Source: Candidatus Cloacimonadota bacterium (GTDB lineage Bacteria; Cloacimonadota; Cloacimonadia; Cloacimonadales; TCS61). Taken from it: a stretch of 33,276 nt of DNA. The stretch is from positions 1 through 33,276 of the forward strand of contig JAIPGP010000040.1 in the NCBI GenBank assembly GCA_021735645.1. Direction: 5' to 3'. This document shows, one piece after another, positions 26,941-33,276 of the stretch. The notes beneath the pieces are model-generated. The model made no database searches, was not told the origin of the DNA, and saw nothing but the letters and a program-made list of their open reading frames with translations. The stretch's first letter is position 1. Each line of letters starts with the position of its first letter. Position numbers and translations under genes: made by a program.

Positions 26941-27240
26941 GTTTTCTTTCCATCATGTTGCTTATTCGCAGCCTTAACTTTCTCTGTCTTTTATTTCTTC
27001 TTCTATGACGTTATTTATTAATAAGCATAATTCGTTCCATATAATATGTCATCACCTGAACCCTTTATAACAGTCACTTCTCCGCCCCCCGTCACCTGAT
27101 ACCCGCTTATTTTATTTTCACCCCTGTCCACAATGTTCACAACCGGAACTACGTAAAAAAAGAAAATAATCCAGCCATGTCAGAAATTTTTAACCCATAA
27201 CCGGAATAATACTCCTGCCCCCCCCAAATTCCCAAGGTAC

Positions 27241-27276
27241 TATAAGTCCTATAGGTCCTATAGGTCCTATATGGAC
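27241..27276. repeat. 9-nt-period repeat TATARGTCC (x3 plus partial)
   Basis: TATAAGTCC TATAGGTCC TATAGGTCC TATATGGAC. Confidence 0.85.
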
Positions 27277-27307: not shown

Positions 27308-27322
27308 TTATCATAATGATAA
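27308..27322. promoter_or_regulatory. 15-bp palindromic candidate operator / upstream activator site 1
   Basis: TTATCAT-A-ATGATAA, perfect 7-1-7 dyad, ~145 bp upstream of the sigma-54-like promoter. Confidence 0.65.
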
Positions 27323-27464: not shown

Positions 27465-27481
27465 TTGGCACGGAGCTTGCA
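27465..27481 (+). promoter_or_regulatory. Sigma-54 (RpoN) -24/-12 promoter
   Basis: TTGGCACG-GAGC-TTGCA; GG at 27467-27468 and GC at 27479-27480, exact 12-nt periodicity; predicted start near 27492. Confidence 0.85.
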
Positions 27482-27519
27482 ATAGAAATAAGTAAAAATA
27501 AGAACTGGGGGACAGAGAA

Positions 27520-27579
27520 ATGAGAAGAAGAGAATTTTTGAAGAAATGGAATGAACGCAAAGCTAGATTTGTGAAGTAA
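27520..27579 (+). CDS. Micro-ORF 1, 19 aa: MRRREFLKKWNERKARFVK
   Basis: ATG...TAA; preceded by GGGGGA; first ORF after the predicted sigma-54 start; aligns without gaps to micro-ORF 2. Confidence 0.6.
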   Translation: MRRREFLKKWNERKARFVK

Positions 27580-27590
27580 GGGAGACAAAG

Positions 27591-27653
27591 ATGAAGAAGC
27601 AAAATTTAATAGATATCTGGAATGGACGTCGCACTCGTTATACTCGGAGGTAG
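27591..27653 (+). CDS. Micro-ORF 2, 20 aa: MKKQNLIDIWNGRRTRYTRR
   Basis: ATG...TAG; preceded by GGGAG; shares M1, W10, N11, R13, R16 and conservative matches at 2, 3, 6, 7, 14, 17, 19 with micro-ORF 1. Confidence 0.6.
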   Translation: MKKQNLIDIWNGRRTRYTRR

Positions 27654-27662
27654 TTGAATAAG

Positions 27663-27720
27663 GGGCGACACCAGACTAAGGGTAACTAATACGGAGCCAG
27701 GCAGCCGTAGAGTTGCCCTT
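27663..27720 (+). ncRNA. Structured RNA segment between the micro-ORFs and tldD (unassigned)
   Basis: AAGGGTAACT (27678-27687) pairs with AGTTGCCCTT (27711-27720), one G-U; inner helix TACGG (27690-27694)/CCGTA (27705-27709); upstream GGGCGAC can pair with the same 3' strand. Confidence 0.5.
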
Positions 27721-27895
27721 TGCCAGCATTTGAAACAGCCATTCGGAAGGTTTTCAACCATCAATGAGGTTTTCTTACTGACAGTGTTTGTTAAGTCTCC
27801 AGAAAATATAGAGCAATCAGAAAGAATTTATTTGACGCCTTAATGAAAAATGTAGAAATTATACATGTACTAATACTAAGAAAATGGGAGCAGCT

Positions 27896-29260
27896 ATGAT
27901 TGAGAAATTAAAGAGTTTATTGCAGAGAGTAGAAGCCGATTATGCCGATATTCGCTATGAAACAAAAGACACCGGCATTCTGCAATTCAGTAATGAGGAG
28001 CTAACGGCTGTAACCAGCAGTCGTACAGACGGCTACGTTATCCGAATATTAAAGGATGGAGGTTTTGCAGCAGCTGCCTTCACCGCCTGGGAAGATGCAG
28101 AGGATGCAATCAACTCTGCGTTGCAAAGTGCAGCAGTGATGGGAGAATACCGCACCAGTCCAGTAGTTCTGGCTGAAGCGGAAATTGTGAAAGACCGCTA
28201 TAGACCGGTTTTGATCGAAGACCCGCGCCAGGTGAGTCTGGAAGAGAAGATTGCTCTTATGAAAAAATACGTCAGCATCCCTTTACAGCAGAAAGAAATC
28301 ATTAACGTCGATCTTACTTATGCTGATGTTATTAGAGAAAGGTATTTTGTTAATAGCGAAGGCAGTGAGATTTTTGAGGAACTGGTGACAACTGTCTTAT
28401 CTGGAGATATCAAGAGCAAGCGTGGTAATGTGATCCAGAATGTGCGGATATCAGCCGGAGGCAGTGATGGTTTTCAGCAAATCAGGGATCAGGAAGCGAA
28501 TTTTGAAAAGCGGACAGGCATTGCCATTGATCTGCTGAGTGCAGAACCGGTCAAAGGCGGGAAGTATAATTGCATCTTGAATCATTTAATGACGGGAGTA
28601 TTTACGCATGAGGCATTTGGACATTTTTCTGAAGCCGACCTCATAGAATCACTGCCGGCAATGCGGGAAAAGATGGAGATTGGCAATAAGCTGGGCTCTG
28701 ATCTGGTAAATATAATAGATGATGCTACGCAGCAGGGACTTTTGGGATATTATAAATATGACGATGAAGGGGTTCCGGTGCGGAAAGTGGAACTGATGAA
28801 GAACGGAGTTCTGACCGGGCGTCTGCATTCACGACGGACAGCGGCAGATTTTGCAGAACCTGTAAGTGGTCATAATATTGCAGAAGATTTCCGATATGCA
28901 CCCATAATCCGTATGGGTACCATTTATATCGATAAAGGAACAGACAGCTTTGAAGTGCTTTTGCAGAAGCTGGGTAATGGAATCTATCTTTGTGATCCCA
29001 AGGGTGGTCAAACTGCTGGTGATAGTTTCACTTTTGGAGCACAATACGGTTACGAAGTTAAAGACGGCAAGCTGGGCAAAATGCTGCGGGATATTAATGT
29101 TTCCGGTAATCTCTATGAAACATTGCAGAATATTACAGCAATTGGTGATGACCTGAAATTCACCAAACGAGGTGGCTGTGGAAAGGGACAAACCAATATT
29201 CGATCCTGCTTTGGTGGCCCGCAAATCATTGTAAATAATCTAGTGATCGGAGGTAACTAA
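27896..29260 (+). CDS. tldD: TldD metalloprotease subunit
   Basis: HEAFGHFSEADL contains the TldD HExxxH motif; GGQTAGDSFTFGAQYGYEV; C-terminal GGCGKGQ. GGGAG lies before ATG 27896 (MIEKLK); track start is 27884. Confidence 0.9.
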   Translation: MIEKLKSLLQRVEADYADIRYETKDTGILQFSNEELTAVTSSRTDGYVIRILKDGGFAAAAFTAWEDAEDAINSALQSAAVMGEYRTSPVVLAEAEIVKDRYRPVLIEDPRQVSLEEKIALMKKYVSIPLQQKEIINVDLTYADVIRERYFVNSEGSEIFEELVTTVLSGDIKSKRGNVIQNVRISAGGSDGFQQIRDQEANFEKRTGIAIDLLSAEPVKGGKYNCILNHLMTGVFTHEAFGHFSEADLIESLPAMREKMEIGNKLGSDLVNIIDDATQQGLLGYYKYDDEGVPVRKVELMKNGVLTGRLHSRRTAADFAEPVSGHNIAEDFRYAPIIRMGTIYIDKGTDSFEVLLQKLGNGIYLCDPKGGQTAGDSFTFGAQYGYEVKDGKLGKMLRDINVSGNLYETLQNITAIGDDLKFTKRGGCGKGQTNIRSCFGGPQIIVNNLVIGGN

Positions 29261-30546
29261 TGAGAAATTTATTAGATTCTGCAAAAGATAATTTTGACCA
29301 GGTGGAAACCTACCGGATCAAGGAAACTTCTACGCAAATGCAGTTACAGAATTCGGCTTTGCAAAATATTGACAACAGCATTCAATCGGCTATTAGTCTG
29401 CGGGTGATCCGTAACCAGAAACTGGGCTTTGCCTATACACGTAACCTGCAATCAAATGAAGATCTGATAAAAAACGCTGAAAACTCCTTATTGGGCGGTG
29501 TTGCTGCAGGTTACCAGTTTCCACACAGTCCCCTGGTGGAAGCGCTGGAAAGCTATAATCCCGGGATTGAACAGCTGAATGCAGGTGTGATCGCAGAAGA
29601 ATGCCAGAGAGTGAATAACTATATTAAGCAGCACACAAATGCAGAGACGGAGATTTATGCCGGCAAAAATATCAGCAGCATTGAACTGATGAATAGTCAT
29701 GGCACAAATCTTACCCATATAAACAGTACTTATTACCTCTATTTCAGTCTGATGTATCCGGGAAGTGCTTCCGGGATAAGCTATTGCCTGATGAATATGG
29801 GCTTTCGGGAATTTGATAAAGTAATCCTTGATAAATTGATTGAAAAGTATCAGGCAGGCAGGTCTGTTGTGCATCCTGAGAGTGGTGCTATGCAGGTATT
29901 ATTTACTCCTGCCACTATGTATGCTCTCACCTGGCGGATTTCACTGGGTATCAGTTCCCGCAGTTATTATGATAAGATCACACCAATTGCTGATAAGCAG
30001 GGAGTGCGGATATTTGATCAGAAATTAAACTTTCATTCTGATCCTTTGGATGAGCGTTTTCCGGGCTCTCGTCCTTTTGATGATGAAGGAGTCGTTTGTC
30101 ATCGGCATAATCTGATCCAGAATGGAGTATTTGAAAAAAGATATAATGACCTGAATTATGCTTCCCGATTAAATGAAAGGCCTACCGGACATGGCTTTCG
30201 AGCTTCTATGACATCTCTGCCGGCTCCTGCGCTGCATCATTTGCAGATGACTCCCGGGCATGACAGCTTTGAGGATATGGTGAAAGGTATGAAAAGAGGT
30301 GTGATACTGGAAAGTATTCTGGGAGCACATAGCGGAAACCTGCCTAATGGAGATTTCTCCATTGGTGTAGCTCCGGCATTGTATGTGGAAAATGGCAGGA
30401 TAATCGGCAGACTCAAGGAAGGAATGGTTTCGGGAAATATCTATCAAATCCTGAAAAAGGTTGATGCTGTGGAAGACACGCTTTATGCTACCGGCTCAAG
30501 CTGGCTCCCATCTATTCTGGTTGATGGAGTGCGGGTAGATATTTAG
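29260..30546 (+). CDS. tldE: TldE/PmbA-family partner subunit
   Basis: 428 aa, immediately follows tldD (1-nt overlap); TldD/PmbA-family similarity (GSRPFDDEGV; SGNIYQILKKVDAV). Confidence 0.85.
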   Translation: MRNLLDSAKDNFDQVETYRIKETSTQMQLQNSALQNIDNSIQSAISLRVIRNQKLGFAYTRNLQSNEDLIKNAENSLLGGVAAGYQFPHSPLVEALESYNPGIEQLNAGVIAEECQRVNNYIKQHTNAETEIYAGKNISSIELMNSHGTNLTHINSTYYLYFSLMYPGSASGISYCLMNMGFREFDKVILDKLIEKYQAGRSVVHPESGAMQVLFTPATMYALTWRISLGISSRSYYDKITPIADKQGVRIFDQKLNFHSDPLDERFPGSRPFDDEGVVCHRHNLIQNGVFEKRYNDLNYASRLNERPTGHGFRASMTSLPAPALHHLQMTPGHDSFEDMVKGMKRGVILESILGAHSGNLPNGDFSIGVAPALYVENGRIIGRLKEGMVSGNIYQILKKVDAVEDTLYATGSSWLPSILVDGVRVDI

Positions 30547-33138: not shown

Positions 33139-33276
33139 GTGCGTCACGAAGTGGTGTGCCTCTAACTGGTGAAAGTCCAGTCCGGTTAATTTTCTGTTCA
33201 GCCGGAAGTGAAAAAGATGGTTATCTCCAGTAATGGAATAATCAAAGCTCTTTGAATCGGTAAGTAAGCCGTAGCG
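33139..33276 (+). mobile_element. Group II intron, 5' part (domain I), truncated by window end
   Basis: GTGCG 5' end exactly at the repeat interruption; AACTGGTGAAAGTCCAGTC and GAATCGGTAAGTAAGCCGTAGCG resemble bacterial group II intron domain I. Confidence 0.85.

Follow-up and report, generated by a model that had tools for sequence, protein, structure and literature searches.

The staphylococcal phenol-soluble modulin (PSM) alpha operon and the aureocin A70-type leaderless bacteriocins are tandem operons of leaderless peptides, and genes of fewer than 27 codons are expected to be missed by annotation pipelines. The TldD/E protease is present in approximately 60% of bacteria and nearly all archaea, and its housekeeping role is unclear (PMC5810440). 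Unfolded peptides are degraded by it from the N-terminus onwards, provided that a stretch of approximately 15 residues is free (PMC5810440, PMC10885120). In NtrYX and PlrPSR systems the gene layout is DUF4390–kinase–regulator (PMC13001219), and one report describes NtrYX as acting on the cell envelope (PMC7240162).

The window considered here is the whole 33,276-nucleotide stretch of DNA, contig C34 of a 3.77 Mb draft genome (G000). An earlier note on its sequence had described two homologous tandem micro-ORFs, each with its own Shine–Dalgarno sequence, beneath a sigma-54 promoter and upstream of tldD–tldE. Each of these elements was found (Table 1); the micro-ORFs encode peptides of 19 and 20 residues, and both protease genes match the PmbA/TldD Pfam domains with scores far above the cut-off. 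Promoter, both peptides and tldDE stand in the same order in both other genomes of the genus (Candidatus Stygibacter, Cloacimonadota; G001 and G002). The gapless alignment of the two peptides given in the note is also real: M1, W10, N11, R13 and R16 are invariant in the four orthologous genus peptides as well, with the GTG start of two of the peptides written as M.

Table 1. Features of the micro-ORF locus in the window.
Feature	Position	Strand	Basis or remark
UAS 1, TTATCATAATGATAA, type A palindrome	27308–27322		Exact palindrome
UAS 2, TTATCATTATGATAA	27338–27352		Spacing to UAS 1: 30 bp in six arrays, 32 bp in two others
Sigma-54 promoter TTGGCACGGAGCTTGCAA (-24/-12)	27465–27482	+	13/13 consensus; kept in G001 and G002
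Shine–Dalgarno of micro-ORF 1, GGGGGA	27507–27512	+	Sequence
Micro-ORF 1, MRRREFLKKWNERKARFVK	27520–27579	+	Kept in G001 and G002; coding test
Shine–Dalgarno of micro-ORF 2, GGGAG	27580–27584	+	Sequence
Micro-ORF 2, MKKQNLIDIWNGRRTRYTRR	27591–27653	+	Kept in G001 and G002; coding test
Strong hairpin AAGGGTAAC...GTTGCCCTT, short T-run	27678–27721	+	Sequence; RNA fold
tldD, HExxxH present	27884–29260	+	Pfam PF19289/PF01523/PF19290
tldE/pmbA partner, without HExxxH	29260–30546	+	Pfam

The probable start of tldD is position 27896, which aligns with the MIEKLK beginning in relatives. Behind micro-ORF 2, G001 and G002 have a clear Rho-independent terminator; because it separates array and tldD, their co-transcription in these relatives would be at best partial. 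The window hairpin occupies the same position, and the folded RNA of 27640–27880 is not unusually stable (z -1.4). A short intergenic repeat, CCATTCGGAAGGTTTTCAACCATC, lies between hairpin and tldD in the window (27735–27770) and is absent from that position in G001 and G002; inverted-repeat copies occur on other contigs of G008 and G001 (L005, L006). Upstream of the UAS, tandem CCTATAGGT / TATAGGTCC repeats span 27237–27275, and similar CCTATAGGT repeats lie downstream of an array on G002:C117 (L052). Rfam searches at gathering and relaxed thresholds returned just a group II intron fragment at the window end (D1-D4-4 RNA, 33163–33276, 55.7 bits, running off the contig end) and one chance lncRNA match.

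A search profile built from six peptides, the window pair and the four genus orthologues, yielded approximately 30 further copies in the same bacterial family, tandem copies among them, which upholds the suggestion of a small basic peptide family in its own right. Across the phylum, matches were found in 11 of 125 genomes, a count that is not independent since the profile was built partly from those same sequences; one bacterial family holds all of them except one weak match. Family peptides are 18–26 residues long, leaderless and cationic (net charge +3 to +8), with the core W-[NK]-x-[RK]-[RK]-x-R-[FY], a conserved Trp and no signal peptide; they are strongly hydrophilic, with only a moderate helical moment. 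No leader/core split was recognised in them: conservation lies in the middle of the peptide, in place of the leader and variable core of a RiPP. Searches of the peptides against Pfam, NCBIfam and PDB gave no match, the best PDB profile hit (mitochondrial mL51, E 0.1) being treated as chance, and tblastn with one peptide against phage and plasmid records gave none. When contigs were scanned for a promoter plus W-N core, all matches outside Cloacimonadota were chance ones, lying out of frame or within proteins, for example in Vogesella/Aquitalea membrane proteins and at a Treponema site. By sequence criteria, the micro-ORFs are a real, conserved and previously undescribed micropeptide family within one Cloacimonadota family.

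The typical array consists of a sigma-54 promoter and one to three micro-ORFs, usually followed by a terminator. Arrays were read in context at G000:C98, G001:C37, G001:C203, G002:C117, G002:C249, G015:C131, G015:C134, G015:C95, G017:C122, G041:C22 (where the promoter falls off the contig end), G054:C81 and G055:C152. On G001:C203 (32984–34305; L051), three nearly identical arrays, every one equipped with a separate UAS, promoter and terminator, lie in direct tandem at distances of 520–680 bp. At several loci (L003, L004, L049–L054), extra basic ORFs of 7–12 codons, such as MQNRSNRRS, MLNRSNRRSYDL, MRRAQKIP and MKARKKQK, directly follow the last micro-ORF and overlap the terminator hairpin, with a possible Shine–Dalgarno sequence inside that micro-ORF; they may be a decaying additional peptide.

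For a coding test, 33 family peptides were aligned on Trp, and amino-acid similarity at differing codons was compared with expectation in BLOSUM units. The in-frame excess across these 33 members was 2.02 units, compared with 0.20 and -0.11 in the other frames. A non-redundant set of 23 sequences scored 1.94 against 1.03 ± 0.06 after shuffling, and 0 of 500 column shuffles reached 1.94. Arginine is conserved through AGA, CGT, CGC and CGG codons and through swaps with Lys codons. Because codon substitutions are conservative in the ORF frame only, the peptides are very probably translated and under selection; this in-frame conservatism and the conservation of the locus favour the idea in the earlier note that these are duplicated, translated peptide genes.

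The window promoter is the sole sigma-54 site scoring above 10/13 in the 33 kb, and sigma-54 sites are present in all array loci tested. Sigma-54 control, as read in the earlier note, is well supported. The idea that the W-N-E-R-R codons imitate a further -24/-12 element was rejected, since the GC is lost in other copies. Beyond what the earlier note had recorded, two 15-bp TTATCATNATGATAA palindromes stand 30 bp apart before the promoter and have the sequence features of putative upstream enhancer sites for an NtrC-type activator. A TTATCATNATGATAA pair at this spacing occurs once per genome, only at the tldDE locus, in all three genus genomes. UAS pairs separated by 30 or 32 bp also accompany other arrays, and the same UAS precedes an NtrX-like operon.

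A pattern of UAS, 95–125 nt and sigma-54 site (type A) was sought in 105 genomes, with the reversed pattern as control; it matched in 15 of them and the control in none. In several genera the matches precede an operon for a PDZ protein, a DUF4390-like protein, a histidine kinase, an NtrC-family regulator and an S49 peptidase (SppA), and the window genome carries such an operon on another contig (G000:C116; L255). HAMP/HisKA/HATPase kinase and REC-AAA-Fis regulator domains were found in operons of this type, and the C116 regulator is 57% identical to that of G049; the DUF4390 matches (E 2e-4 and 5e-4; 21 and 20 bits) fall below the Pfam cut-off of 27 bits. In six genomes of genus group g11, the first ORF of the operon is itself a micro-ORF, e.g. 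MKNLVIKWNEKKIEVITRSKSKTN, which by sequence places micro-ORF, kinase, regulator and SppA in one operon; these micro-ORFs scored 1.62 in frame against -0.30 and 0.48 in the other frames, on few sequences of which two are identical. The two-component system encoded here appears to be NtrYX-like and autoregulated. In Cloacimonadota, NtrYX-like systems with a DUF4390-like protein were seen at L255, L264 and relatives; the survey in PMC13001219 describes DUF4390 for proteobacteria. Of two single type A sites examined, that on G000:C22 has a sigma-54 match on the other strand, 5′ of a predicted secreted protein, and that on G002:C206 has no good sigma-54 site. No exporter was found in the type A regulon.

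A second type of UAS, the palindrome GTNCGCNNGCGNACA (type C), precedes other arrays, HlyD/MacB/FtsX operons, FtsX permeases and a secreted protein, as well as one DUF3795–tldDE operon (G007) and, in two genera, an NtrC-family regulator gene. With these two sigma-54 systems, the micropeptides are therefore placed among peptidases and exporters. At the G007 locus (G007:C62; L151), a strong sigma-54 site and the type C UAS stand before the DUF3795 gene and tldDE; the search for W-N micro-ORF arrays found none in this genome.

The link to TldD/E drawn in the earlier note finds support beyond the window locus. The tldDE pairs that micro-ORFs adjoin are three distinct paralogues and extend to further genera, and in two of these cases a TetR regulator is also present; a rough binomial estimate puts the chance of three such adjacencies among approximately 13 locus classes below 1e-6. 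The window class pairs with tldDE in three genomes. A single micro-ORF directly precedes TetR-tldE-tldD in four genomes of two genera (G000:C83, G001:C203, G002:C360 and G015:C69), where a sigma-70-like promoter and a TetR-operator-like palindrome, read by eye, take the place of sigma-54. The cluster of a third genus (G004:C35) reads TetR, micro-ORF, small membrane protein, tldD, tldE. Because the G000 and G004 TetR proteins are related (33% identity), two of the three linkages may have a common origin. The linked TldD proteins carry HExxxH and their partners do not.

The link is nevertheless not universal. No micro-ORF was found in the upstream regions of approximately 40 other tldDE pairs, which rules out a hidden micro-ORF at every tldDE, and in other genera TetR-type tldED orthologues stand without TetR and micro-ORF. 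Most micro-ORF arrays lie away from tldDE, so that an HExxxH-bearing tldDE pair beside a peptide gene, although seen in three arrangements, marks a minority of loci. At a further tldDE pair (G000:C139, G002:C259, G001:C158 and G015:C34; L147, L148, L149 and L157), GG-N10-GC sigma-54-like sites lie 49–55 nt before tldD; their position is constant, and singly they are weak, scoring 8–10/13, as do sites in 4–15% of control upstream regions. The need of TldD/E for approximately 15 free residues suits peptides of this length, and its binding of substrates with little sequence preference means that it need not explain the W-N-x-R signature. The view that the micropeptides are natural TldD/E substrates is a sound inference open to testing, not an established result.

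The evidence leans slightly towards a reading in which the micropeptides are outputs of sigma-54 two-component stress regulons, acting as short-lived effectors of a response to peptide or envelope stress and serving as natural substrates of TldD/E. It is proposed that an NtrX-type regulator, most likely that encoded on C116, binds the two TTATCATNATGATAA sites, which lie approximately 115 bp before the -24/-12 promoter, and thereby activates transcription of a short mRNA encoding both peptides, with the hairpin limiting read-through into tldDE. Envelope or peptide stress would bring bursts of peptide synthesis, and the peptides would act as cationic effectors in the cell or after export. TldD/E would thread them N-terminus first and degrade or trim them. 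The type A and type C regulons would also produce SppA, MacAB-type exporters and in places TldD/E, and at the TetR copies one operon would tie the peptide to the protease. A more pointed proposal, in which stress-induced W-N-x-R effector arrays are under autoregulated sigma-54 control and TldD/E is their dedicated degrading off-switch, is put forward tentatively, at well below even confidence.

Secreted cationic peptides resembling leaderless bacteriocins or modulins, exported by the co-regulated MacAB/HlyD pumps and trimmed by TldD/E and SppA or kept by them from harming the producer, would account for most of the same evidence; this alternative is unlikely, and it differs from the preferred explanation solely in where the peptide works. 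The tandem short ORFs without signal peptides, the positive charge and conserved Trp of their products, and the type C UAS common to arrays and HlyD-MacB-FtsX operons are all in keeping with secretion. In B. subtilis, SppA gives protection from cationic peptides (PMC7568657), and exported microcins are matured by TldD/E (PMC5810440). However, a dedicated exporter adjoins none of the arrays, and the window locus belongs to the type A regulon, which yielded no exporter. The hydrophilicity and modest helical moment of the peptides also argue against secretion, as does their limited sequence diversification, in contrast to many bacteriocins.

It is improbable that the RNA is the product and that the arrays are regulatory sRNAs in which the ORFs are incidental or serve RNA stability only. 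Short, terminator-ended sigma-54 transcripts do resemble sRNA genes, and the last micro-ORFs share CGT-CGY-NNN-CGT-TAY at the nucleotide level. Yet the conservative substitution seen in frame does not extend to frames -1 and +1, Arg is maintained across synonymous and Lys codon swaps, each ORF keeps its own Shine–Dalgarno sequence, and the ORF recurs in sigma-70/TetR and long-operon contexts; the arrays have no Rfam match.

Little likelihood attaches to a role as leader peptides, which would act by translational coupling or attenuation on the downstream tldDE or PDZ-kinase operon. The g11 micro-ORF lies immediately before the PDZ gene, a hairpin precedes tldD in the window, and the end of the micro-ORF overlaps possible start codons of TetR, all as such a leader would predict. 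Against this, most arrays terminate without a conserved gene following, a leader would not be expected in two or three consecutive copies, no codon run fits one sensed amino acid throughout, and the type A operons of G048 and G049 exist without a micro-ORF. Chance ORFs near an unrelated tldDE are very nearly out of the question: the ORFs are indeed very short, but the coding test and family recurrence already refute this explanation, and promoter and UAS are conserved with them.

If TldD/E is indeed the dedicated off-switch of these peptides, this widely conserved protease would have a native substrate of regulatory function, unrelated to antibiotics and toxins. Conserved micropeptides found repeatedly next to tldDE, and sharing regulons with SppA and MacAB-type pumps, are a concrete candidate for a native substrate, and the arrays suggest that genes of fewer than 27 codons can be main outputs of sigma-54 two-component systems.

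Compared by layout only, the arrays share with the PSM alpha and aureocin A70 operons a row of several ORFs of 20–30 residues, with their own Shine–Dalgarno sequences and no leader, and two-component control or ABC pumps nearby. Unlike those operons, they have sigma-54 promoters, belong to a Gram-negative phylum and encode an arginine-rich hydrophilic core. Like PlrP-PlrSR of Bordetella, a member of the NtrYX family (PMC13001219), the type A operon encodes a DUF4390-like protein, a kinase and an NtrX-like regulator together; unlike it, the Cloacimonadota operon adds a PDZ protein, SppA and a micropeptide gene, with a DUF4390 match below cut-off. HlyD, a MacB ATPase and FtsX/MacB_PCD permeases behind the type C UAS recall MacAB-TolC-type exporters under sigma-54 regulators, whereas this regulon also holds micropeptide arrays and one tldDE.

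The described substrates of TldD/E (MEROPS M103), namely the McbA/microcin B17 precursor, CcdA41 and the pearlin scaffold peptides, are small unfolded peptides handled by a TldD/E heterodimer, as is proposed for the micropeptides, and its metal motif, HExxxH, is found also in the TldD proteins linked to micro-ORFs. The micropeptides differ from McbA, CcdA41 and pearlin in their length of 18–26 residues and fixed W-N-x-R core, and from known TldD/E RiPP systems in that tldDE is there usually encoded elsewhere (PMC10885120). The RiPP-modifying enzymes YcaO, radical SAM, PEARL/LanB and MNIO were not recognised among those neighbouring ORFs, part of the total, that were listed or scanned. Without membership of either class being claimed, the locus resembles leaderless tandem peptide operons in its layout and the TldD/E-processed peptides in its partner enzyme.
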